A stretch of 64,000 nt of DNA from Anoxybacteroides tepidamans (GTDB lineage Bacteria; Bacillota; Bacilli; Bacillales; Anoxybacillaceae). Both the position numbers and the translations under genes were made by a program. The stretch is from NCBI RefSeq assembly GCF_014201465.1, contig NZ_JACHEP010000005.1, positions 62,001 to 126,000 of the forward strand. The letters run 5' to 3'. The first letter of the stretch is position 1. The number at the start of each line of letters is the position of its first letter. The notes below the pieces were generated by a model. It was not told the DNA's origin. It did no database searches and saw nothing but the letters and a program-made list of their open reading frames with translations. Positions 1 through 14,633 of the stretch are shown here, piece by piece.

Positions 1-1
1 A

Positions 2-1087
2 GGGGCACTTGTCGTGAAAGAAACGTTAAAACGGGCAGGAAACTATGAAGGGAATATTGACGATTTAATTATCGGTTGTGCGATGCCGGAAGCGGAACAA
101 GGATTAAACATCGCCCGCAACATCGGAGCGTTAGCTGGACTTCCGTACACCGTTCCAGCGATTACGATCAATCGTTATTGCTCATCAGGATTACAAGCGA
201 TTGCTTACGCTGCGGAGCGGATTATGCTTGGGCATTCGGATACAGTAATTGCCGGCGGCGTCGAATCAATGAGCCTTGTACCAATGATGGGGCACGTCGT
301 ACGTCCAAACGTGAAAATCGCTGAAAACGCGCCGGAATATTACATGTCGATGGGGCATACGGCTGAGCAAGTGGCGATGAAATACGGCGTTACGCGCGAA
401 GATCAAGATGCGTTTGCCGTACGCAGCCATCAACGGGCGGCAAAAGCAATTCGCGAAGGAAAATTTGTCGATGAAATCGTTCCGGTTGAAGTAACGATTC
501 GCAAAATCGAGAACAACAAAGTTATTGAAAAAACGGTATTGTTTTCTGAAGATGAAGGCGTGCGCCCAGATACGAACATGGAAACGCTCGCGAAACTGCG
601 TCCGGCGTTTGCTGTCGACGGAACGGTCACGGCTGGAAACGCTTCGCAAACGAGCGACGGCGCCGCAGCGGTCATGGTCATGGATCGTGAAAAAGCGGAA
701 TCGTTAGGCTTAAAACCGCTCGGGAAGTTCCGTTCGTTCGCGGTGGCTGGGGTACCGCCGGAAGTGATGGGCATTGGTCCGGTCGCAGCCATCCCGAAAG
801 CGTTGAAGCTTGCGGGGTTGGAACTTTCTGACATTGGGTTATTTGAACTCAACGAAGCGTTTGCTTCCCAATCGATCCAAGTCATTCGCGAGCTTGGCTT
901 AGACGAAGAAAAAGTGAATGTCAACGGCGGAGCGATTGCGCTCGGTCATCCGCTTGGCTGTACTGGCGCGAAATTGACGTTATCGCTTCTTTATGAAATG
1001 CGCCGCCGCAACGAACAGTTTGGCATCGTTACGATGTGCATCGGCGGCGGCATGGGCGCAGCAGGTGTGTTTGAATTAATCGACTAA
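2..1087 (+). CDS. fadA: Acetyl-CoA C-acyltransferase (3-ketoacyl-CoA thiolase), 5' end outside window
   Basis: Last step of fatty-acid beta-oxidation: thiolytic cleavage of 3-ketoacyl-CoA. The reading frame is open to the left edge of the window, and the codons before the first GTG still read as thiolase sequence (GALVVKE), so about 30 N-terminal residues are missing. Visible thiolase hallmarks are the nucleophile Cys in [10 protein letters not shown], the [12 protein letters not shown] block with the active-site His, and the C-terminal [10 protein letters not shown] block with the second catalytic Cys. It is followed after 61 nt by fadE, as in the B. subtilis fadN-fadA-fadE operon. The assignment is secure; only the start is unseen. 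Confidence 0.95.
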
Positions 1088-1097
1088 CAAGCGGTGC

Positions 1098-1116
1098 GGG
1101 CGGTATTTTTCCGCCC
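1098..1116 (+). other. Intercistronic hairpin between fadA and fadE
   Basis: GGGCGG and CCGCCC form a 6-bp stem around a T-rich loop. No U-run follows, so it is more likely an RNA-processing or stability element than a terminator. Confidence 0.4.
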
Positions 1117-1148
1117 CATCTGTTCAACAATAAGGGGGAGGAATAACG

Positions 1149-2933
1149 ATGACAAAAGCAGCAGAGCAAGTAGTAAAAGGCGGCAGCTTTTTGATTGAAG
1201 ATGTTTCTTGTGAGCGTGTGTTTACGCCAGAAGATTTTACGGATGAACAAAAAATGATTGCGAAAACGACCGAAGAGTTCGTTGTGAACGAAGTTCTTCC
1301 GCAGTTGGAGCATTTGGAAAACCATGAATTTGACCGTTCTGTGAAACTATTAAAACAAGCAGGTGAGCTTGGATTGTTAGGAGCGGACGTTCCAGAAGAG
1401 TACGGTGGATTAGGGCTTGATAAAATCAGCTCCGCGCTCATTGCCGAAAAAATGTCACGCGCCGGCGGTTTTTCGATTTCTCATGGAGCGCATGTCGGGA
1501 TCGGTTCGCTTCCGATCGTTCTATTCGGTACGGAAGAACAAAAACAAAAATATTTACCGGCATTAGCGACAGGAGAAAAAATTGCCGCATATGCGTTAAC
1601 GGAGCCTGGATCCGGTTCGGACGCATTAGGAGCGAAAACGACAGCAAAACTGAACGCTGAAGGCACGCACTACATTTTAAACGGAGAAAAACAATGGATT
1701 ACGAACGCTGGATTTGCCGATGTATTTGTCGTTTATGCGAAAGTGGACGGCGAACATTTCTCAGCGTTTATCGTCGAACGTGACTTCCCAGGCGTATCGA
1801 CAGGTGCAGAAGAAAAGAAAATGGGCATTAAAAGCTCTTCGACGCGTACATTAATTTTACAGGATGCGCTCGTTCCGAAAGAAAACTTGCTTGGCGAAAT
1901 CGGCAAAGGCCATGTCATCGCTTTCAATATTTTAAACATCGGCCGCTATAAATTAGGGGTTGGTGCGGTCGGCGGCGCGAAACGCGCGCTAGAAATTACG
2001 ATTCAATACGCGAACCAACGTCAACAATTTAAAACGCCAATTTCAAAATTTACGTTAACACAAGAAAAGTTTGCGACCATGGCGTCGAAATTGTACGCAG
2101 CGGAAAGCTCCGTCTACCGCACGGTTGGCTTATTTGAAGAGCGGATGAGCCAACTAGACGCGGAACAAGCAAAAGACGGCAAAGAAATCGCGAAATCGAT
2201 TGCCGAATATGCCATCGAATGCTCGCTCAACAAATTCTTTGCGACGGAAGTATTAGATTACATCGTCGATGAAGGCGTGCAAATTCATGGCGGTTACGGC
2301 TTTATGCAAGAGTATGAAATCGAGCGCGCGTACCGTGACTCGCGCATTAACCGCATTTTCGAAGGAACGAACGAAATTAACCGTCTCCTTGTGCCAGGTA
2401 CGTATTTGCGTAAAGCGATGAAAGGAGAATTGCCGCTCCTTCAAAAAGCGCAACAATTGCAAGAAGAATTGATGATGTTAATGCCGGAAGAAGTGGGCGA
2501 CGGCGTGCTTGAGCAAGAGAAATATTTAGTGCGCAATGCGAAGAAAATTGCGTTGCTAACGGCTGGGTTAGCTGCACAAAAATTCGGTCCGAAATTAGAA
2601 AAAGAGCAAGAGATTTTAGTAAATATCGCCGACATCGTCAGCAACATTTATGCAATGGAGTCCGCTCTTCTTCGCACCGAAAAAGCAATCCAAACATCCG
2701 GTGTCGAGAAAAACAAACAAAAAGTTCTTTACACTGAAATTTTCTGCCAAGAAGCGTTTAATGAAATTGAAGCACATGCAAAAGAAACGATTGTTGCGGT
2801 GGAACAAGGTGATATGTTGCGCATGATGTTATCGGCATTGCGTAAACTTACTCGCCATACGCCAATTAATGTGATCGCGAAAAAACGCGAAGCAGCAGCG
2901 GCGTTAATTGAAGCGGAGCGTTATATTGTGTAA
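1149..2933 (+). CDS. fadE: Acyl-CoA dehydrogenase
   Basis: FAD-dependent oxidation of acyl-CoA to trans-2-enoyl-CoA, the first step of beta-oxidation. The 594-residue length matches the long bacillar FadE (YusJ) type, which has a C-terminal helical extension beyond the roughly 380-residue ACAD core. ACAD features are the central AYALTEPGSGSDA segment and the IFEGTNEINR segment near the end of the core, where the family carries active-site residues. The ATG start has an AAGGGGGAGG ribosome site. It sits directly downstream of fadA and belongs to the same operon. Regulation by FadR is known in B. subtilis, but the operon promoter lies outside this window. Confidence 0.95.
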   Translation: MTKAAEQVVKGGSFLIEDVSCERVFTPEDFTDEQKMIAKTTEEFVVNEVLPQLEHLENHEFDRSVKLLKQAGELGLLGADVPEEYGGLGLDKISSALIAEKMSRAGGFSISHGAHVGIGSLPIVLFGTEEQKQKYLPALATGEKIAAYALTEPGSGSDALGAKTTAKLNAEGTHYILNGEKQWITNAGFADVFVVYAKVDGEHFSAFIVERDFPGVSTGAEEKKMGIKSSSTRTLILQDALVPKENLLGEIGKGHVIAFNILNIGRYKLGVGAVGGAKRALEITIQYANQRQQFKTPISKFTLTQEKFATMASKLYAAESSVYRTVGLFEERMSQLDAEQAKDGKEIAKSIAEYAIECSLNKFFATEVLDYIVDEGVQIHGGYGFMQEYEIERAYRDSRINRIFEGTNEINRLLVPGTYLRKAMKGELPLLQKAQQLQEELMMLMPEEVGDGVLEQEKYLVRNAKKIALLTAGLAAQKFGPKLEKEQEILVNIADIVSNIYAMESALLRTEKAIQTSGVEKNKQKVLYTEIFCQEAFNEIEAHAKETIVAVEQGDMLRMMLSALRKLTRHTPINVIAKKREAAAALIEAERYIV

Positions 2934-2938
2934 TAATG

Positions 2939-2976
2939 GAAGTACCAGACTATGGTCTGGTACTTTCGTTATTTGA
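2939..2976 (+). terminator. Hairpin after fadE
   Basis: An 11-bp near-perfect stem (AGTACCAGAC paired with GTCTGGTACT, loop TATG) directly follows the fadE stop. The following sequence is only moderately T-rich, so termination is probably partial and yusI may be read through. Confidence 0.65.
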
Positions 2977-2985
2977 GGTGATGAG

Positions 2986-3345
2986 ATGGTAACGTTTTAT
3001 TGGTACCCAAAGTGCGGCACGTGCCGGAAAGCGAAAAAATGGCTCGATGAACACGGTGTTGCGGTGAATGAAGTACATATTGCCGAATACCCGCCGGCAA
3101 AAGAAGAATTAAAAGAACTTTATCAAAAAAGCGGCCTGCCGTTAAAAAAATTTTTTAACACAAGCGGACAGAAATACCGTGAACTTGGATTGAAAGATCG
3201 GATCCGTACCGCTTCGGACGAGGAATTGTTGGATCTTTTAGCGTCGGACGGCATGTTAATCAAACGGCCGGTTTTAACGGATGGGACGCGTGTCGTCATC
3301 GGCTTTGACGAGCAACTGTACGAAAAATTTTTTGGACAAGCTTAA
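2986..3345 (+). CDS. yusI: ArsC/Spx-family protein (YusI)
   Basis: A 119-residue thioredoxin-fold protein of the ArsC/Spx family. The CxxC motif is C10-G-T-C13 (WYPKCGTCRKA), and the family's LKKFFNTSG segment is present. Members are either thiol reductases or, like Spx, RNA polymerase-binding regulators; the substrate of YusI is not known. The ATG start at 2986 lies 5 nt after GAGGTG. The position after fadE and before gcvH is as in B. subtilis. Confidence 0.85.
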   Translation: MVTFYWYPKCGTCRKAKKWLDEHGVAVNEVHIAEYPPAKEELKELYQKSGLPLKKFFNTSGQKYRELGLKDRIRTASDEELLDLLASDGMLIKRPVLTDGTRVVIGFDEQLYEKFFGQA

Positions 3346-3419
3346 GGAAGGACAGTCGAGTTTTTCGAAAAAATCAGTTATGATTAAAAAGAATACATTT
3401 GCAGTTGGAGGGACTTGAA

Positions 3420-3803
3420 ATGAACACGCCAAAAGAATTACGTTATTCTGAAGAACATGAATGGGTACGTGTAGAAGGAGACAAAGTTCGAGTAGGTATT
3501 ACGGATTTTGCTCAATCCGAATTGGGAGATATCGTTTTTGTTGAACTTCCGGAAGTCGGAACGGAAGTAACAGCAAACGAACCGTTCGGCAGCGTGGAAT
3601 CAGTAAAAACGGTTTCGGAACTATACGCGCCGATCAGTGGAAAAGTGGTGGAAGTGAATGAAGAGTTAAACGATAACCCTGAATTTGTGAACGAATCTCC
3701 GTATGAAAAAGCATGGATGATCATCATCGAGCCGTCTGATGTAAGCGAACTTGACAATTTATTGACAGCCGAGCAATACGAAGCAATGATTAACGAAGAA
3801 TAA
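3420..3803 (+). CDS. gcvH: Glycine cleavage system H protein
   Basis: Lipoyl-carrier protein that shuttles the aminomethyl group in the glycine cleavage system. In Bacillus it is also the protein on which lipoate is first assembled before transfer to the 2-oxoacid dehydrogenases. The lipoylated lysine is K63 in [15 protein letters not shown]. At 127 residues it has the normal length. An upstream in-frame TTG would add seven residues, but the ATG at 3420 has GGAGGG at the right distance and gives the usual N-terminus [15 protein letters not shown]. The other glycine cleavage genes are not in this window, whereas lipA is about 17 kb downstream. Confidence 0.96.
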
Positions 3804-3817
3804 ATAGGTGTGCACGA

Positions 3818-3849
3818 AGCAATGGCCGTCTGCGTCATTGCTTTGTTTA
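3818..3849 (+). terminator. Terminator after gcvH
   Basis: AAGCAATG pairs with CATTGCTT, followed by a T-rich stretch (TTTGTTTA). It lies 15 nt after the gcvH stop. Confidence 0.7.
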
Positions 3850-3919
3850 ATAATGGAGGAGAAACAAGCAAACGTATAGAATACTATAATAAGGTGATCT
3901 TTGTTATTAGGTGATGATT

Positions 3920-4261
3920 ATGACGGAAATTGAAAAAGTAATTATTGTCGAAGGACGCTCCGATAAGAAAAAAATCGAAAGTTTAGTAAAAGAACCGGTA
4001 GAAATTATTTGCACGAACGGGACGATTAGCCGCGCCAAATTAGACGAATGGATTGAAGCGCTTTATAATAAAGAGGTGTTTATCTTAGTGGATGCCGATG
4101 AAGCTGGAGAGAGATTAAGGAAACAATTGCGCCGCGAATTTCCGGAAGCGGAGCATTTATATATTGATCGTATGTACCGTGAAGTCGCCGCTGCGCCAAG
4201 GCGGCATATTGCGGCCGTATTGCTAGGGGCGAATATTGATGTGTATGCGGATGATTTGTAA
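3920..4261 (+). CDS. yusF: Toprim-domain protein (YusF)
   Basis: A small stand-alone Toprim protein of about 113 residues. The metal-binding Toprim motifs are the VIIVEGRSDKK segment (conserved Glu) and ILVDADEAG (the D-x-D motif). Toprim folds coordinate Mg2+ in topoisomerases, primases and small nucleases such as RNase M5, but the activity of this short family is not established. Start codons occur at 3911 (GTG), 3914 and 3920. I chose 3920 because AGGTGA sits 5 nt before it. A TATAAT sequence lies at 3885-3890 without a clear -35. Confidence 0.8.
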   Translation: MTEIEKVIIVEGRSDKKKIESLVKEPVEIICTNGTISRAKLDEWIEALYNKEVFILVDADEAGERLRKQLRREFPEAEHLYIDRMYREVAAAPRRHIAAVLLGANIDVYADDL

Positions 4262-4281
4262 AAAGTTTGGACGGTGCGAAG

Positions 4282-4587
4282 ATGAAAGAAGTAACAGCTA
4301 AGCGGCTAGACGAACTGATTCAACAGGAGACCTTCGTCTGTTTATATGTATATACACCGATGTGCGGAACATGTCAGTTGGCTCAGCGCATGGTCGACAT
4401 TGTGGAGCAACTATTTCCTCATATCACATTTTGCAAAACGGATATTAATTATATGCCTGAACGTGCGGCTTTATGGGAAATCGAAAGCGTTCCTTGTTTG
4501 CTTTTGTTTCAAAATGGAAGTCAAAAGAAAAAGATATATGCATTTCATTCCGTGCCTCACTTATACGAGGTCATCCAACAAGTGTGA
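4282..4587 (+). CDS. yusE: Thioredoxin-like protein (YusE)
   Basis: A thioredoxin-fold protein of 101 residues with the redox motif C28-G-T-C31 in YTPMCGTCQLA. The cis-Pro position is visible as ESVPCLLLF. It is a predicted cytoplasmic thiol-disulfide protein with unknown partner. A TTG at 4267 would add five residues, but the ATG at 4282 gives a more usual N-terminus; neither has a strong ribosome site. It starts 20 nt after yusF, so the two are probably cotranscribed. A terminator follows. Confidence 0.82.
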   Translation: MKEVTAKRLDELIQQETFVCLYVYTPMCGTCQLAQRMVDIVEQLFPHITFCKTDINYMPERAALWEIESVPCLLLFQNGSQKKKIYAFHSVPHLYEVIQQV

Positions 4588-4617
4588 AAACATCGTCATC
4601 GTTGGCGATGTTTTTTT
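4588..4617 (+). terminator. Terminator after yusE
   Basis: Stem AAACATCG / CGATGTTT followed by a run of T residues, directly after the yusE stop codon. Confidence 0.85.
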
Positions 4618-4768
4618 GCATGAATAGACGCTTTTTGACATATTTCTCGGGAAATGTGAAGAATTTTGTTTGTTTTGCTTGTGATTTGTCGAGAAGTTTA
4701 TAAAGGATTAGCGCCTCTTTTGATGGAAATCAATGAGAGAAAAGGAAAATGGAGAGGCGGGGGGAATA

Positions 4769-5116
4769 ATGAGTATTCATGAATTAGTGAAACAGTTTAT
4801 CGAACGGGTAAACGCGTTGAACCATTTGTTACCGATTTTACCGGAAGAGTCGCTATATGTTTGTGTGGAATGTGAGGAGGAAACGATTACTTTTTCACTT
4901 TCCAAATACGGGATTCAGCACGATATGGAGAGGGAAGAACAAAAAACCGTCACAGTTTGCGGATCAAAAGAAGTGCTAAAAAGCTTGTTTTATGGAGAAC
5001 TCAAGTTGCAGCAGCTGCTCCGTCTAAAAGAGGTAGCGGTTTTCGGAAGTTTCCGCCATATGTTGTTATTAGAATCACTTCTTCATTTAGCCAAACCATA
5101 CCGATATGCCTCTTAA
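4769..5116 (+). CDS. yusD: YusD-like conserved protein
   Basis: A 115-residue protein at the position of B. subtilis yusD. I recognise it mainly from context and length; the family is sometimes linked to SCP-2 sterol-carrier folds, which I cannot confirm here. It has a hydrophobic helical C-terminus (MLLLESLLHLAKPY) and no signal peptide. An in-frame ATG at 4733 lies upstream, but the start at 4769 is preceded by a G-rich ribosome site (GGCGGGGGGA). Function unknown. Confidence 0.6.
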   Translation: MSIHELVKQFIERVNALNHLLPILPEESLYVCVECEEETITFSLSKYGIQHDMEREEQKTVTVCGSKEVLKSLFYGELKLQQLLRLKEVAVFGSFRHMLLLESLLHLAKPYRYAS

Positions 5117-5376
5117 AAGAAGCAAAATTATTGTCATGGATGAAATGATAGTTTTATTATTCTGAAAAATAATATAATTTCATAACTTTTATCAAGGATG
5201 ACTGAGGGGTGGCTCGATGAAGCCCTGCAACCGGTTTGTTACGGTGTTGATTATAGCAGATTTGGTTGCTCTAAAAGAGAAGAAAAGCTACAGAAACTCG
5301 ATGATCTCACATCTTTTGTACTTGAGTTGCGATGTTTCATTCCAAAATATAACATATATATTAGAAAAATTTTTTG
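5117..5376 (+). promoter_or_regulatory. Degenerate S-box-like leader (5186-5287) in a gene-free stretch
   Basis: This stretch between yusD and the metN promoter has no gene. From 5186 to 5287 it aligns to a SAM-I riboswitch: it starts TTTTATCAAG, carries GATGAAGCCC and TGCAACC, then a GGTG(N)8AGCA segment equivalent to the J3/4-P4 junction. Short P1 (CTTTT/AAAAG), P3 (CCG/CGG) and P4 (AGCA/TGCT) helices can still form, but the P2 kink-turn pairing is weakened. A TATAAT (5173-5178) lies just upstream. No rho-independent terminator and no coding region follow. It is either a decayed duplicate of the downstream riboswitch or a divergent second aptamer. Confidence 0.6.
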
Positions 5377-5406
5377 TTGACACTTTCCTTATAACGATGA
5401 TAAAAT
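5377..5406 (+). promoter_or_regulatory. Sigma-A promoter of metNPQ
   Basis: TTGACA (5377-5382), an 18-bp spacer and TAAAAT (5401-5406). It lies about 75 nt upstream of the complete S-box aptamer. Confidence 0.65.
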
Positions 5407-5481
5407 CACATTCGTAATTTAATTAAAAATGACTCTTGAATGCATTAAAGCTTTAATTGAATAAATGAGCGTGTTGCTGCT

Positions 5482-5640
5482 CTTATCAAGAGAGGTGGAG
5501 GGATGTGCCCAATGAAACCCGGCAACCGTCAGCAGGAGCTGAAATGGTGCCAATTCACACAAAGCAGTTGCTTTGAGAGATAAGAGACAGAAATGGGGAA
5601 ATATGACCTTTCTGTTCTCTTAAGCAGAAAGGTTTTTTAT
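5482..5640 (+). ncRNA. SAM-I (S-box) riboswitch with terminator
   Basis: Canonical S-box leader. P1 is CTTATC (5482-5487) paired with GATAAG (5579-5584). The conserved core includes the AGAGGTGGAGGGA kink-turn strand, CAATGAAACCC and GGCAACC. The expression platform is a perfect 9-bp terminator (5606-5614 with 5625-5633) followed by T6. Family knowledge: SAM binding stabilises P1, blocks the antiterminator and stops transcription, so the downstream methionine importer is expressed when SAM is low. Confidence 0.95.
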
Positions 5641-5667
5641 TTGTCGTAAAAGGAAGGTGAGATGTGA

Positions 5668-6693
5668 TTGATCACATTAGAACATGTGACGAAAGTGTAT
5701 CCGTCGAACCGCGGAGAAGTGACAGCGGTTAATGACGTCAGTTTGCATATTCAAGAAGGAGAAATTTTCGGAATCATTGGTTACAGCGGTGCGGGAAAAA
5801 GCTCGCTTATTCGCCTGTTAAACGGATTAGAAAAGCCGACGAAAGGAAATGTGATCGTCGCTGGTCGGAATATCGCCAATATTAAGGGGAAAGAACTGCG
5901 CCAAGCCCGCCAAGAAATCGGCATGATCTTTCAGCATTTCAATTTACTTTGGTCGCGGACGGTGCGTGAAAATATTGCGTTTCCGTTAGAAATTGCCGGC
6001 GTTCCGAAAGAAGAGCGATTGAAACGGGTGGATGAGTTGATTCAGCTTGTCGGTCTTGAAGGCCGGGAGCATGCTTATCCATCGCAGTTAAGTGGGGGAC
6101 AAAAACAGCGTGTCGGCATTGCGCGGGCGCTGGCGAACAATCCGAAAGTGTTATTGTGTGATGAAGCGACTTCCGCCTTGGATCCGCAAACAACCGATTC
6201 GATTTTAGATTTATTAGTGGATATTAATAAGCGTCTAGGATTAACGATTGTGTTAATTACGCATGAAATGCACGTCATTCGCAAAATTTGCGATCGGGTG
6301 GCGGTGATGGAAAACGGGAAAATTGTCGAAGAAGGAGAAGTATTGCACGTCTTTCGCCAGCCGCAGCAAACGATCACAAAACGGTTTGTTCAACAAATCA
6401 CAGAACCGGAAGAAACGAAAGAAACGATTGCTCATTTGCTTCAGCAATATTCGACTGGGAAAGTCGTTCAATTAACATTTGTCGGTGAAGCCGCCGAGCA
6501 ACCGCTCATGACCAAGCTTATTCGTCAATTTCAGCTAAACATTAACATTTTGCAAGGAAAAATTTCGCAAACGCATCACGGTTCATATGGCGTGTTGTTT
6601 ATCCATATGGATGGATCAGACGAAGACATCGAGCGAGCGCTCGCTTTCATTCGTCAGCAACAAGTCGAAGTGGAGGTGGTGACGAATGAATAA
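5668..6693 (+). CDS. metN: Methionine ABC importer, ATP-binding protein
   Basis: ATPase of the D/L-methionine importer. Walker A is GYSGAGKS (residues 39-46), the ABC signature LSGGQKQR starts at 141, and Walker B is VLLCDEATSALD (161-172). The C-terminal part, from about residue 265, is the regulatory NIL domain typical of MetN. The total of 341 residues is normal. The start is TTG at 5668 after AAGGAAGGTGAG; no in-frame ATG gives the usual MITLEHV N-terminus. It overlaps metP by 8 nt, and expression is controlled by the preceding S-box. Confidence 0.96.
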   Translation: MITLEHVTKVYPSNRGEVTAVNDVSLHIQEGEIFGIIGYSGAGKSSLIRLLNGLEKPTKGNVIVAGRNIANIKGKELRQARQEIGMIFQHFNLLWSRTVRENIAFPLEIAGVPKEERLKRVDELIQLVGLEGREHAYPSQLSGGQKQRVGIARALANNPKVLLCDEATSALDPQTTDSILDLLVDINKRLGLTIVLITHEMHVIRKICDRVAVMENGKIVEEGEVLHVFRQPQQTITKRFVQQITEPEETKETIAHLLQQYSTGKVVQLTFVGEAAEQPLMTKLIRQFQLNINILQGKISQTHHGSYGVLFIHMDGSDEDIERALAFIRQQQVEVEVVTNE

Positions 6694-7351
6694 CTTGTTT
6701 CCAAACGTTCAGTGGGAAACGATTTGGGCGGCGACATCTGAAACGCTTTATATGACAGGAGTTGCAGTTGCTGCGACGTTTGTGCTCGGCCTCATTCTTG
6801 GGTTGCTGCTGTTTTTAACATCGAAAGGGAACATTTGGGAAAATAAAATCGCCAATACCGTCATTTCGGCATTCGTCAATATTTTTCGTTCGATTCCGTT
6901 CATCATTTTAATTATTTTGCTGATTCCATTTACAAAACTCATTGTCGGCACAATTCTCGGGGCGAATGCGGCGTTGCCAGCGCTCATTATCGGGGCCGCA
7001 CCGTTTTATGCGCGCATGGTAGAAATCGCCTTGCGAGAAATCGATAAAGGTGTCATTGAAGCGGCGAAAGCGATGGGGGCGACGACAGCACAAATTATTT
7101 GGAAAGTGCTTATCCCAGAATCACTGCCAGCGCTTATTTCTGGTATTACGGTCACCGCGATTGCCCTTGTTGGGTATACGGCAATGGCGGGAGTTGTCGG
7201 TGCGGGCGGTCTTGGAAACTTAGCATATTTAGAAGGATTTCAGCGCAACCATAACGACGTAACATTTGTCGCGACTGTGCTCATTTTAGTCATCGTGTTT
7301 ATCATTCAGTTTATTGGTGACTTTGTCACTTCTAAAATAGATAAAAGATAA
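6686..7351 (+). CDS. metP: Methionine ABC importer, permease
   Basis: Membrane permease (MetI/MetP) of the methionine importer, 221 residues with about five transmembrane segments. The EAA loop that contacts the ATPase is visible in the segment AAKAMGATTAQIIWKVLIPES. The start overlaps metN by 8 nt, indicating translational coupling. metQ follows after 19 nt, completing the S-box-controlled operon. Confidence 0.95.
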   Translation: MNNLFPNVQWETIWAATSETLYMTGVAVAATFVLGLILGLLLFLTSKGNIWENKIANTVISAFVNIFRSIPFIILIILLIPFTKLIVGTILGANAALPALIIGAAPFYARMVEIALREIDKGVIEAAKAMGATTAQIIWKVLIPESLPALISGITVTAIALVGYTAMAGVVGAGGLGNLAYLEGFQRNHNDVTFVATVLILVIVFIIQFIGDFVTSKIDKR

Positions 7352-7370
7352 AAAAGAGGAGGAAAACAGC

Positions 7371-8198
7371 ATGAAAAAATGGATTGCATTATTGACGGTT
7401 GCGTTTGTGTTGGTGCTTGCGGCGTGCGGCGGCAAAAACAATGCCGGCGGCGAAAAAGAAACAGGAAAACTCGTTGTTGGCGCCTCAAACGTACCTCATG
7501 CGGAAATTTTAGAGAAAGCAAAACCGATTTTAAAAGAAAAAGGAATTGATTTAAAAATTGTGACATTCCAAGATTACATTTTGCCAAACAAAGCATTGGC
7601 GGACAAAGAAATTGATGCAAACTATTTCCAGCACATTCCTTATTTAGAATCCCAGAAAAAGGAATACGGCTATGATTTCGTCAATGCAGGCGGCATTCAT
7701 ATCGAGCCGATCGGCATTTATTCAAAAAAATATAAAAGCCTTGAAGAACTTCCAGAAGGCGCAACGATTATTATGAGCAACTCGGTTGCCGATCACGGCC
7801 GCATTTTATCGATGTTGCAAGAAAAGGGTCTCATTAAATTAAAAGACGGTGTCGATAAAACGAAAGCAACCGTTCAAGACATTGTAGAAAATCCGAAAAA
7901 ATTAAAATTTAAAACAGATGTAGACGCAGGTCTTTTACCGCAAATTTATAAAAACAACGAAGGCGATGCCGTCGTTATTAACGCGAACTATGCGCTCGAT
8001 GCCGGCTTAAATCCGGCAAAAGACCCAATTGCAGTGGAATCGCCAAAAGATAATCCGTATGTGAATATCATCGCTGTACGCAAAGGCGACGAAAACCGAA
8101 AAGAAATTAAAACGCTTGTCGAAGTGTTGCAATCAAAAGAAATTCAAGACTTTATTAAAGAAAAATATAAAGGTGCTGTCATTCCAGCAGCGCAATAA
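7371..8198 (+). CDS. metQ: Methionine-binding lipoprotein
   Basis: Extracytoplasmic substrate-binding lipoprotein of the methionine importer (NlpA/MetQ family), 275 residues. The signal peptide ends in the lipobox LAAC with the acylated Cys at position 19, followed by a GGKNN linker. The mature part contains the family segments VGASNVPHAEIL and DANYFQHIPYLE. It has a good AGAGGAGG ribosome site. It is the last gene of the operon and is closed by a strong terminator. Confidence 0.96.
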   Translation: MKKWIALLTVAFVLVLAACGGKNNAGGEKETGKLVVGASNVPHAEILEKAKPILKEKGIDLKIVTFQDYILPNKALADKEIDANYFQHIPYLESQKKEYGYDFVNAGGIHIEPIGIYSKKYKSLEELPEGATIIMSNSVADHGRILSMLQEKGLIKLKDGVDKTKATVQDIVENPKKLKFKTDVDAGLLPQIYKNNEGDAVVINANYALDAGLNPAKDPIAVESPKDNPYVNIIAVRKGDENRKEIKTLVEVLQSKEIQDFIKEKYKGAVIPAAQ

Positions 8199-8200
8199 AA

Positions 8201-8237
8201 AAAGAGAACGGAAGCACGAGTGCTTCCGTTCTTTTTT
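8201..8237 (+). terminator. Terminator after metQ
   Basis: Perfect 12-bp stem (8206-8217 with 8220-8231) with a 2-nt gap and T6. Confidence 0.92.
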
Positions 8238-8519
8238 AACGACAGTATAATCCAAGGAAAGAACTATTCACAAGCGCGCGCAATTCAGATGTTTAATCGC
8301 ATTTTTGTGAAACATACTAACATTGATGGAAAAGAGTCATGTTTTGCTTACATACTTTCAAAACTTTTTTATTTAAAAAGTATCGTAATAAGGTTAAATG
8401 GTTGATAATACATTTCATTTGTTATAAGATTGTAATGAGAATAAAATGAGAATAAAATAAGTGTGTGAAATCAGTCAATGAGATATGCAAATTTTTTGTG
8501 AAAATTGGAGGTATTTTTC
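8238..8519 (+). promoter_or_regulatory. suf operon upstream region with candidate promoter and tandem 11-mers
   Basis: There is no credible gene in this AT-rich stretch. A weak sigma-A-like promoter is TTGATA (8402-8407), 17 bp, TAAGAT (8425-8430). Exactly where transcription would begin, two perfect tandem copies of AATGAGAATAA lie at 8434-8444 and 8445-8455, followed by a partial third. This is a plausible operator for an iron or Fe-S responsive regulator, but it is not a clean Fur palindrome. SufC begins at 8520 after GGAGGT. Confidence 0.4.
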
Positions 8520-9299
8520 ATGGCAGTGTTGACGATTCGAGATCTCCACGTATCGGTGGAAGGAAAAGAAATTTTAAAAGGGGTCAATTTAGAGGTAAAA
8601 GGCGGCGAGATCCACGCCATCATGGGACCGAACGGAACCGGTAAATCGACGTTATCTTCGGCCATTATGGGCCATCCAAAATATGAAGTAACAAAAGGAA
8701 GCATCACGTTAGACGGACAAGACGTATTGGAAATGGAAGTAGATGAGCGTGCCCGCGCAGGCCTTTTCTTAGCGATGCAATATCCGAGCGAAATTAGCGG
8801 AGTAACGAACGCCGATTTCTTGCGGACAGCGATTAATGCTCGTCTTGGGGAAGGAAACGAAATTTCCTTAATGAAGTTCATCCGCAAATTGGACGAGAAA
8901 ATGTCATTTCTCGAAATGAATCCGGACATGGCGCACCGCTACTTAAACGAAGGATTTTCCGGCGGTGAAAAAAAGCGTAACGAAATTTTGCAACTGCTGA
9001 TGTTGGAACCGAAAATCGCCATTTTGGACGAAATCGACTCCGGTCTTGATATTGATGCATTAAAAATCGTTTCTAAAGGCGTAAACGAAATGCGCAGCAG
9101 CGACTTCGGCTGTTTGATCATTACCCACTATCAACGTTTGCTAAACTACATTACACCAGACTACGTGCATGTGATGATGCAGGGGCGCATTGTGAAATCA
9201 GGAGGGCCGGAGTTGGCACAACGCTTGGAAGCAGAAGGATATGACTGGATTAAGAAAGAACTCGGCATCGAAGACGAAACGGTTGAGCAAGAAGTGTAA
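8520..9299 (+). CDS. sufC: Fe-S cluster assembly ATPase SufC
   Basis: Cytoplasmic ABC-type ATPase of the SufBCD scaffold that assembles Fe-S clusters. Walker A is GPNGTGKST at residues 36-44, the signature is the Suf-type FSGGEKKR, and Walker B is IAILDEIDSGLD. Length is 259 residues. The ATG at 8520 has GGAGGT 7 nt upstream; an in-frame TTG at 8505 is not supported. It is the first gene of sufCDSUB, in the same order as in B. subtilis. Confidence 0.97.
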   Translation: MAVLTIRDLHVSVEGKEILKGVNLEVKGGEIHAIMGPNGTGKSTLSSAIMGHPKYEVTKGSITLDGQDVLEMEVDERARAGLFLAMQYPSEISGVTNADFLRTAINARLGEGNEISLMKFIRKLDEKMSFLEMNPDMAHRYLNEGFSGGEKKRNEILQLLMLEPKIAILDEIDSGLDIDALKIVSKGVNEMRSSDFGCLIITHYQRLLNYITPDYVHVMMQGRIVKSGGPELAQRLEAEGYDWIKKELGIEDETVEQEV

Positions 9300-9319
9300 G
9301 CGTTAGGAGGATTATTTAT

Positions 9320-12277
<2,958 letters not shown>

Positions 12278-12306
12278 GTGGCTTGTAAAAAAGGAGGCGA
12301 ATAGTA

Positions 12307-13704
12307 ATGGCGAAAAAAATGCCGGAAATCGGTGAATATAAGTATGGCTTTGCGGATAAAGACGTTTCTGTATTCCGCGCCGAACGCGGTTTGACGCGAG
12401 AAATTGTCGAAGAAATTTCGCGCATGAAAAACGAGCCGCAATGGATGCTCGAATTCCGCTTGAAAGCGTTAGATATTTTCTACAGCATGCCGATGCCGCA
12501 ATGGGGCGGCGATTTGTCGAGCCTAAATTTCGATGAAATTACGTATTATGTAAAGCCGTCGGAAAAATCAGGCCGTTCTTGGGATGAAGTGCCGGAAGAA
12601 ATTAAAGCAACATTTGACAAACTAGGAATTCCAGAGGCGGAACAAAAATATTTAGCAGGGGTATCAGCGCAATACGAATCTGAGGTCGTCTACCACAACA
12701 TGAAAGAGGACCTTGAAAAATTAGGGGTTATTTTCAAAGATACGGATTCGGCGTTAAAAGAAAATGAAGATATTTTTCGTGAGCATTGGGCAAAAGTTGT
12801 ACCGCCAACGGATAACAAATTTGCGGCGCTTAACTCGGCTGTCTGGTCGGGCGGATCGTTCATTTACGTGCCAAAAGGCGTGAAAGTCGATACGCCATTG
12901 CAAGCGTATTTCCGCATTAACTCGGAAAATATGGGGCAATTTGAACGGACATTGATTATCGTCGATGAAGGGGCGCACGTCCATTATGTTGAGGGCTGTA
13001 CAGCGCCGGTGTATACGACGAACTCGCTTCATAGCGCCGTCGTTGAAATTATCGTGAAAAAAGGTGCTTACTGCCGTTATACAACGATTCAAAACTGGGC
13101 GAACAACGTCTTTAACCTTGTGACAAAGCGCGCCGTTTGTGAAGAAAATGCGACGATGGAATGGATTGACGGCAACATCGGTTCGAAGTTAACGATGAAA
13201 TATCCGGCCGTGATTTTAAAAGGAGAAGGCGCACGCGGTTTGACGCTTTCGATCGCAATTGCCGGCAAAGGACAGCATCAAGACGCGGGTGCGAAAATGA
13301 TTCACCTTGCGCCAAATACATCTTCCACGATTGTTTCCAAATCGATTTCAAAACAAGGCGGTAAAGTCACGTACCGCGGCATCGTCCACTTCGGGCGCAA
13401 AGCGTCTGGTTCGCGTTCAAACATTGAATGTGACACATTAATTATGGATAATCAATCGACGTCCGATACGATTCCATACAACGAAATTTTAAACGACAAT
13501 ATTTCGCTTGAGCACGAAGCGAAAGTGTCGAAAGTATCGGAAGAGCAATTGTTCTACCTCATGAGCCGCGGCATTTCCGAACAGGAAGCGACAGAAATGA
13601 TCGTTATGGGCTTCATCGAGCCGTTTACAAGAGAGCTTCCGATGGAATATGCAGTAGAAATGAACCGTCTCATTAAGTTCGAAATGGAGGGTAGTATTGG
13701 GTAA
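12307..13704 (+). CDS. sufB: Fe-S cluster assembly protein SufB
   Basis: Core scaffold subunit of SufBCD on which the nascent Fe-S cluster is built; 465 residues. The C-terminal half is the SufBD domain with conserved blocks such as [17 protein letters not shown] and [22 protein letters not shown]. The start is ATG after AAGGAGGCG. It is the last gene of the suf operon and is followed by a strong terminator. Confidence 0.97.
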
Positions 13705-13705
13705 T

Positions 13706-13746
13706 AAAAAGCCGATTGTTCGCCACGAGCGAATAATCGGCTTTTT
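13706..13746 (+). terminator. Terminator after sufB
   Basis: Long stem (AAAAGCCGATT..TTCGC with GCGAA..AATCGGCTTTT) and T5, directly after the sufB stop. Confidence 0.92.
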
Positions 13747-13784
13747 GTCGTAAGGTTGTGGTAAGATAGTAGTAGGTGATGATG

Positions 13785-14633
13785 ATGATTTATGTCGGTT
13801 TAACGGGATGGGGGGATCATCCGAGTCTGTATCCATCGCATGCGGCATCGAAAGATAAATTGCTCGCCTATGCAGCGCATTTTCCAACGGTAGAAGTTGA
13901 TGCGTATTTTTATGCGATTCAGCCGCAAAAAAACGTTGAAAAGTGGGTGATGGAAACGCCCCCTTCGTTTCAATTTATCATTAAAGCCTATCAAGGAATG
14001 ACGGGACACCAACGCGGCGACATTCCGTACAAAAGTAAAGATGAGATGTTTGCTGCCTTTTTACAGTCGATTCAACCGTTTATGGAAACAAACAAGCTCG
14101 CGATGGTGTTATTTCAATTTCCGCCGTGGTTTGATTGTAAAAAAGAGCATGTGCGTTACTTAAGATGGTGTCGAGAAAAAATGGGGGAAGTTCCGGTCGC
14201 GCTTGAATTTCGCCATCGATCCTGGTTTTCGCCAATGTTTTACGACAAGACGTTGCAGTTTATGGAAGAAGAGCGGTGGATTCACAGCATTTGCGATGAG
14301 CCGCAAGCAGGGGAAGGATCCATTCCGACCGTTTTGTATCCGACGAACCGAGAAAAAACGCTCATTCGCTTTCATGGCCGCAATGTGCACGGATGGAATA
14401 AGGCGACAAACGGAGAAAATTGGCGAGCGGTTCGCTATTTATATCGTTACGGTAAAGAAGAATTGCTTGAATGGGTTGAGCATATTCGAAAACTTGAGGC
14501 GAAAACGAACAATATTTACGTATTATTTAATAATAATTCTGGTGGTGATGCGGCGGATAATGCCAAACAGTTTATTGGCTTACTTGGTATTGAATATATC
14601 GACTTAGCACCGAGGCAATTAGACTTATTTTAA
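13785..14633 (+). CDS. yunF: DUF72 family protein (YunF)
   Basis: A 282-residue DUF72 (YecE-like) protein with a predicted TIM-barrel fold and unknown reaction. Family features are the N-terminal IYVGLTGWGDH, KWVMETPPSFQF and VALEFRHRSWF. Several in-frame start codons cluster at 13776-13785; I chose the last ATG because AGGTGATG precedes it. Its stop overlaps a possible ATG of the next gene, so yunF and yunE are probably cotranscribed. Confidence 0.85.
   Translation: MIYVGLTGWGDHPSLYPSHAASKDKLLAYAAHFPTVEVDAYFYAIQPQKNVEKWVMETPPSFQFIIKAYQGMTGHQRGDIPYKSKDEMFAAFLQSIQPFMETNKLAMVLFQFPPWFDCKKEHVRYLRWCREKMGEVPVALEFRHRSWFSPMFYDKTLQFMEEERWIHSICDEPQAGEGSIPTVLYPTNREKTLIRFHGRNVHGWNKATNGENWRAVRYLYRYGKEELLEWVEHIRKLEAKTNNIYVLFNNNSGGDAADNAKQFIGLLGIEYIDLAPRQLDLF

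Follow-up and report, generated by a model that had tools for sequence, protein, structure and literature searches.

A probable fossil of the S-box leader of a lost metY gene upstream of metNIQ in Anoxybacteroides tepidamans

The locus lies in a 64,000-nucleotide stretch of contig NZ_JACHEP010000005.1 (the window), which belongs to a genome assembly of 54 contigs and 99.99% completeness (G000), and all of its features described here are on the plus strand. On the upstream side, an SCP2-like gene (PF02036, 4772-5116; 23.6 bits, cut-off 21.3) serves as syntenic anchor. The downstream side is occupied by metN, the ATPase of a methionine ABC transporter (5668-6693), for which TIGR02314 was the best NCBIfam model although its 398.7 bits missed the cut-off of 499.7; by a permease ORF (6686-7351), probably metI/metP judging by its position; and by metQ, the substrate-binding lipoprotein (7371-8198), for which MetQ models were best, yet below their cut-off. 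The transporter genes are preceded by an S-box (SAM-I riboswitch, RF00162) at 5480-5586, by an intrinsic-terminator-like site of that S-box (5605-5634, from a terminator scan), and, further upstream, by a metN promoter, TTGACA-18-TAAAAT (5377-5406), that matches the consensus at 11 of 12 positions and whose TTGACAC is identical in all seven aligned genomes of the genus. No tRNA was found in a scan of window positions 1-14000.

Between the SCP2-like gene and this promoter, the first-pass annotation had proposed a second, divergent S-box at 5186-5287. Covariance models confirm that it is real. In a cmscan of 901 bases against all of Rfam, 5186-5284 gave a full-length match to RF00162 (model positions 1-108) with 30.7 bits and an E-value of 9.6e-5, as compared to 88.8 bits for the canonical S-box. 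The score falls under the Rfam gathering score of 44.4 bits, and a default scan reports the canonical S-box alone. Over the whole genome, seven S-boxes scored above the cut-off (70.7-100.9 bits), and the sole further match besides the divergent segment reached 15.7 bits. A covariance model specific to the family was trained on 18 intact S-boxes, the segment itself excluded, and run on 28 of the 42 stretches fetched around metN; it gave the segment 40.7 bits (E-value 1.1e-6 in 163 kb). Scores with this model were bimodal, with 32 S-boxes at 107.0-115.6 bits, five relics at 30.7-52.2 bits and an empty gap in between. Together, the RF00162, whole-genome and family-model scores rule out a chance match.

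The S-box sequence elements named in the annotation are present in the segment, and so is the damage it had described, i.e., a broken P2 with residual P1, P3 and P4 pairing. In a manual count on the RF00162 alignment, P1 has 2 non-standard pairs out of 8, P2 has 3 out of 5, P3 has 2 out of 10 and the inner P4 helix has 2 out of 6, versus two in total for the canonical S-box. All four helices of the paired four-way junction are thus hit, P2 most, with P1 and P3 largely retained. Besides its junction and its score, the segment departs from a working SAM-I riboswitch in its conserved core, where it breaks 15 of the 68 columns that do not vary among the 32 intact S-boxes of the family, and in its expression platform, as 5287-5480 contains no terminator-like site. 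The single such site in 4600-5800 is the one at 5605-5634 after the canonical S-box, in agreement with the earlier view that no terminator follows the segment.

A DNA search of seven genus genomes found window positions 4733-5700 contiguous only in G000 and in G004 (Anoxybacillus sp. J5B_2022). A distance of about 1.4-1.9 kb separates the halves in G001, G002, G005 and G006; in G003 they are on two contigs. The DNA of G002 and G005 matches the window from 4733 through the degraded S-box (to 5296 and 5287, respectively) and then continues with metY, followed by the metN S-box. Relatives thus carry an S-box-metY unit at this place and the window does not. The S-boxes at the position of the relic score 94.7 bits in G002 and 98.8 bits in G005 (RF00162), and metY of G005 scores 654.6 bits with TIGR01326 (cut-off 495.1). 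The best metY match in G000 is only 45% identical, across residues 7-226 of 438, versus 90% identity in G001, G002, G003 and G006; presumably the G000 matches are related MetI/MetC-type enzymes. G004 has the arrangement of the window, with a relic of 49.3 bits, and a metY homolog of 63% identity was seen on another of its contigs (L092). Homology to the G002 and G005 DNA stops and resumes across 5288-5371, where we place the deletion by which metY lost its expression platform and its coding sequence; in G002, G005 and G033, a hairpin with a T-run stands directly behind the metY S-box, as judged by eye and by folding. The annotation had considered a fossil from a rearranged met locus, and synteny supports this idea, the rearrangement consisting in the removal of metY from its place between the two S-boxes.

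Ahead of the relic, a TATAAT reported earlier is indeed present (5173-5178), but the promoter scan picks TTGTCA-18-TATTAT at 5131-5160 instead. This consensus match is a candidate remnant of the metY promoter, and its first hexamer aligns with TTGACA in G002 and G005. The same region contains a CodY-box-like site (5156-5170) with three mismatches to the consensus, and its core TTC(A/T)GAAAA is retained in all seven aligned genus genomes. As a CodY box it was rejected, since such sites occur in the window at chance level, with 11 observed and 11.1 expected.

The metY leaders of G001, G003 and G006 (L042:1450-1590, L043:2640-2768 and L044:2860-2995, the latter two on the minus strand) are without an S-box. 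Folding of the G001 and G006 leaders gives a hairpin just ahead of the GGGGGAGAGG ribosome site, in which both sides of one pair have changed between the two genomes (CCCTCTC/GAGAGGG versus CCTTCTC/GAGAAGG). The hairpin arms are also present in G003, where the best fold is different. This element may be a vestige of the former terminator, or else a control element that arose anew.

The survey was extended to the family, all 41 genomes of which gave a match, and the stretches around metN were scored with Rfam models and tblastn. In five genomes (G002, G005, G033, G034 and G037), a full metY stands behind an S-box that exceeds the cut-off (94.7-99.7 bits), and the metNIQ S-box comes next in each case. 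Another five have a decaying S-box at the metY position: G000 (30.7 bits), G004 (49.3), G039 (41.3), G036 (30.3) and G032 (24.6). In G039, metY is present as two overlapping pieces, with no match to its first 118 residues, and in G032 as two short C-terminal scraps. Scraps of metY without an S-box were found in G035 and G038. Eight genomes (G001, G003, G006, G040, G007, G011, G013 and G015) have a full metY adjoining the flank gene with no S-box found; in four (G008, G009, G010 and G012) metY is present with its leader outside the fetched stretch, and the stretch of G014 contains neither metY nor the flank gene. In the remaining 16 of 41 (G030, G031 and 14 genomes of genus g3), the searches found neither metY nor a second S-box. 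A relic and metY scraps in G031 (L059), as well as metY scraps in G036, were recognized by eye only and scored by no search.

The direction of change was read from a tree of three flank genes covering 36 of the 41 genomes (G008, G009, G010, G012 and G014 lacked these genes in their stretch). Because intact S-box-metY units are found on either side of the midpoint root of this tree, which has no outgroup, our informal reading favours an ancestor that carried an S-box-metY unit, which was then lost several times: in G000/G004, in genera g4 and g3, within g6 (G035), within g7 (G036 and G038) and in g8 (G039). In view of the metY genes lacking an S-box, the S-box may also have been gained or lost independently of metY. 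The pairing of G000 with G004 has a support of only 90/64 in this tree. At five invariant columns (3, 19, 77, 79 and 91) both relics carry the same change, and each has private changes besides; since changes of both kinds occur, decay probably began before the two lineages split and continued afterwards.

To follow this decay, columns invariant in the 32 intact S-boxes were compared with the others. The window relic is broken at 15 of the 68 invariant columns; of the 20 other columns, 6 depart from the metY-type consensus (Fisher p 0.55), and so few columns give the comparison low power. The other relics break 11 (G004, p 0.20), 16 (G039, p 0.09, mostly one deletion), 18 (G036, p 0.77) and 18 (G032, p 1.00) of the 68. 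When every intact metY S-box is scored against the remaining four, changes amount to 0 of 340 at invariant and 25 of 120 at other columns, although invariance was defined with their own rows included, which favours zero breaks. In a leave-one-out analysis of 18 intact S-boxes, the five of metY had 0 of 46 breaks each, and three of the other intact S-boxes of G000 broke 3-4 of about 50 otherwise invariant columns. An earlier alignment with sequences added by MAFFT gave 11 of 46 broken invariant columns for the window relic; MAFFT apparently shifted the G004 row, and the model-based count is preferred. Because invariant columns have decayed about as fast as variable ones, the orphaned aptamer appears, within the power of this test, to have decayed without detectable constraint. 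Between G000 and G004, the relic differs by 20 substitutions and one gap in 102 positions, its 3' half being better conserved than its 5' half, versus 5 differences in 107 for the intact metN S-box.

Two other origins or roles had been raised for the segment. The annotation had considered a decaying duplicate, which in its tandem form would derive from the neighbouring metN S-box; the relic lies about 200 bases upstream of it, on the same strand, and is 62% identical to it. Identity is higher, however, to the metY S-boxes of G002 (73%) and G005 (72%), whose homologous flanks enclose the metY S-box, and a metY S-box is the best intact match of all five relics by plain identity. The phylogeny of the S-boxes agrees: 28 of the 42 stretches supplied 37 sequences, S-boxes and relics together, which were aligned to the model from 18 intact S-boxes, and in the resulting tree the 27 metN S-boxes split from the metY S-boxes and five relics with a branch support of 100/100, and forcing the window relic into the metN group was rejected by the AU test (p 0.03), with the long branches of the relics as a caveat. 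By syntenic place and by similarity, the relic belongs with the metY S-boxes in descent, and we consider the probability of a metN duplicate close to negligible. The annotation's second proposal was a diverged but working aptamer that would form a two-input, tandem leader of metNIQ. An upstream transcript would carry both segments, there being no terminator-like site in the interval between them, and SAM-SAM tandem riboswitches have been described upstream of metNIQ in Bacillota (PMC12452182). Against such a leader stand the decay of invariant positions at about the rate of the others, the three non-standard pairs among five in P2, the different P2 positions broken in the sister genome G004, and the conserved metN promoter downstream of the relic, from which the usual transcript should lack it. 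Function as a second input is, on this evidence, extremely unlikely.

The segment could also have been co-opted, for example as an upstream promoter or as the source of a short RNA from the retained promoter. The flanks invite this idea, since identity to G004 reaches 90% in 5117-5185 and 93% in 5288-5371, compared with 67% at fourfold sites of the neighbourhood, and such identity could mean constraint. Yet three other spacers on the contig are 94-95% identical to G004 and others are down to 68%, and a special conservation of 5288-5371 was dropped on account of these spacers and the mosaic of identities. This mosaic suggests recombination, as do the long identical runs; between window positions 1-13700 and L093 of G004, runs of 227, 182 and 149 bases are identical, at 67% identity of fourfold sites overall. 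Moreover, 5288-5365 folds no better than shuffled sequences (z -0.57), and a search of the other 40 genomes of the family with 5240-5376 gave a strong match in G004 only. Co-option of the region is therefore very unlikely, and a similarly low probability applies to the more specific case in which the orphaned leader, together with the conserved sequence that follows it, was retained to control metNIQ from upstream as a second promoter or leader segment. In local alignments of 5288-5376 with 20 possible sources (metY leaders, coding regions, spacers and other relic flanks), the best target was equalled by 19 of 200 shuffles. In a plasmid collection, the 10 listed matches all map to the part of the query that holds the canonical S-box and its terminator.

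We conclude that 5186-5287 is very probably the fossil aptamer of the S-box leader of a lost metY gene that once stood between the SCP2-like gene and metNIQ. The ancestral locus would have consisted of the SCP2-like gene, the S-box with metY (O-acetylhomoserine sulfhydrylase), and metNIQ. Because the arrangement and part of the relic changes are common to G000 and G004, we infer that the common ancestor of A. tepidamans and Anoxybacillus sp. J5B_2022 had already lost metY together with its terminator. The relic probably does nothing now. Judged from sequence, the metN S-box and its terminator look intact; most likely, this S-box controls metNIQ and the promoter at 5377-5406 drives its transcription. 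As the conserved metN promoter is located downstream of the relic, the simplest reading leaves the relic out of the main metN transcript; any RNA still started at the older promoter would enter the metN S-box and be controlled there.

Compared with SAM-I leaders of metY and metNIQ (RF00162), the relic matches over the full length, keeps the order of elements and appears to descend from a metY S-box, but it scores below gathering, has a broken P2 and core, and possesses neither a terminator nor a gene of its own. With the tandem SAM-SAM riboswitches before metNIQ surveyed in PMC12452182, it has in common two SAM-I-like segments in a row; here, the first segment is left over from the leader of a different gene, and the metN promoter separates the two. 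A degraded aptamer beside an intact one is also found in singleton glycine riboswitches, whose ghost aptamers, according to PMC6944388, keep P1 for tertiary contacts with the partner; in the present relic, no constraint was detected. Among the matches listed in the open-licence literature, no title concerned SAM-I relics of lost genes.

The existing knowledge of S-box function is unchanged by these results, and the fossil reflects ordinary evolution. Such relics can enter counts of tandem riboswitches, as illustrated by the relic of G004, which passes the Rfam cut-off. For the family, the locus provides a clear example of riboswitch death after gene loss, since across 41 genomes the S-box at this one syntenic position ranges in stages from intact to entirely lost.
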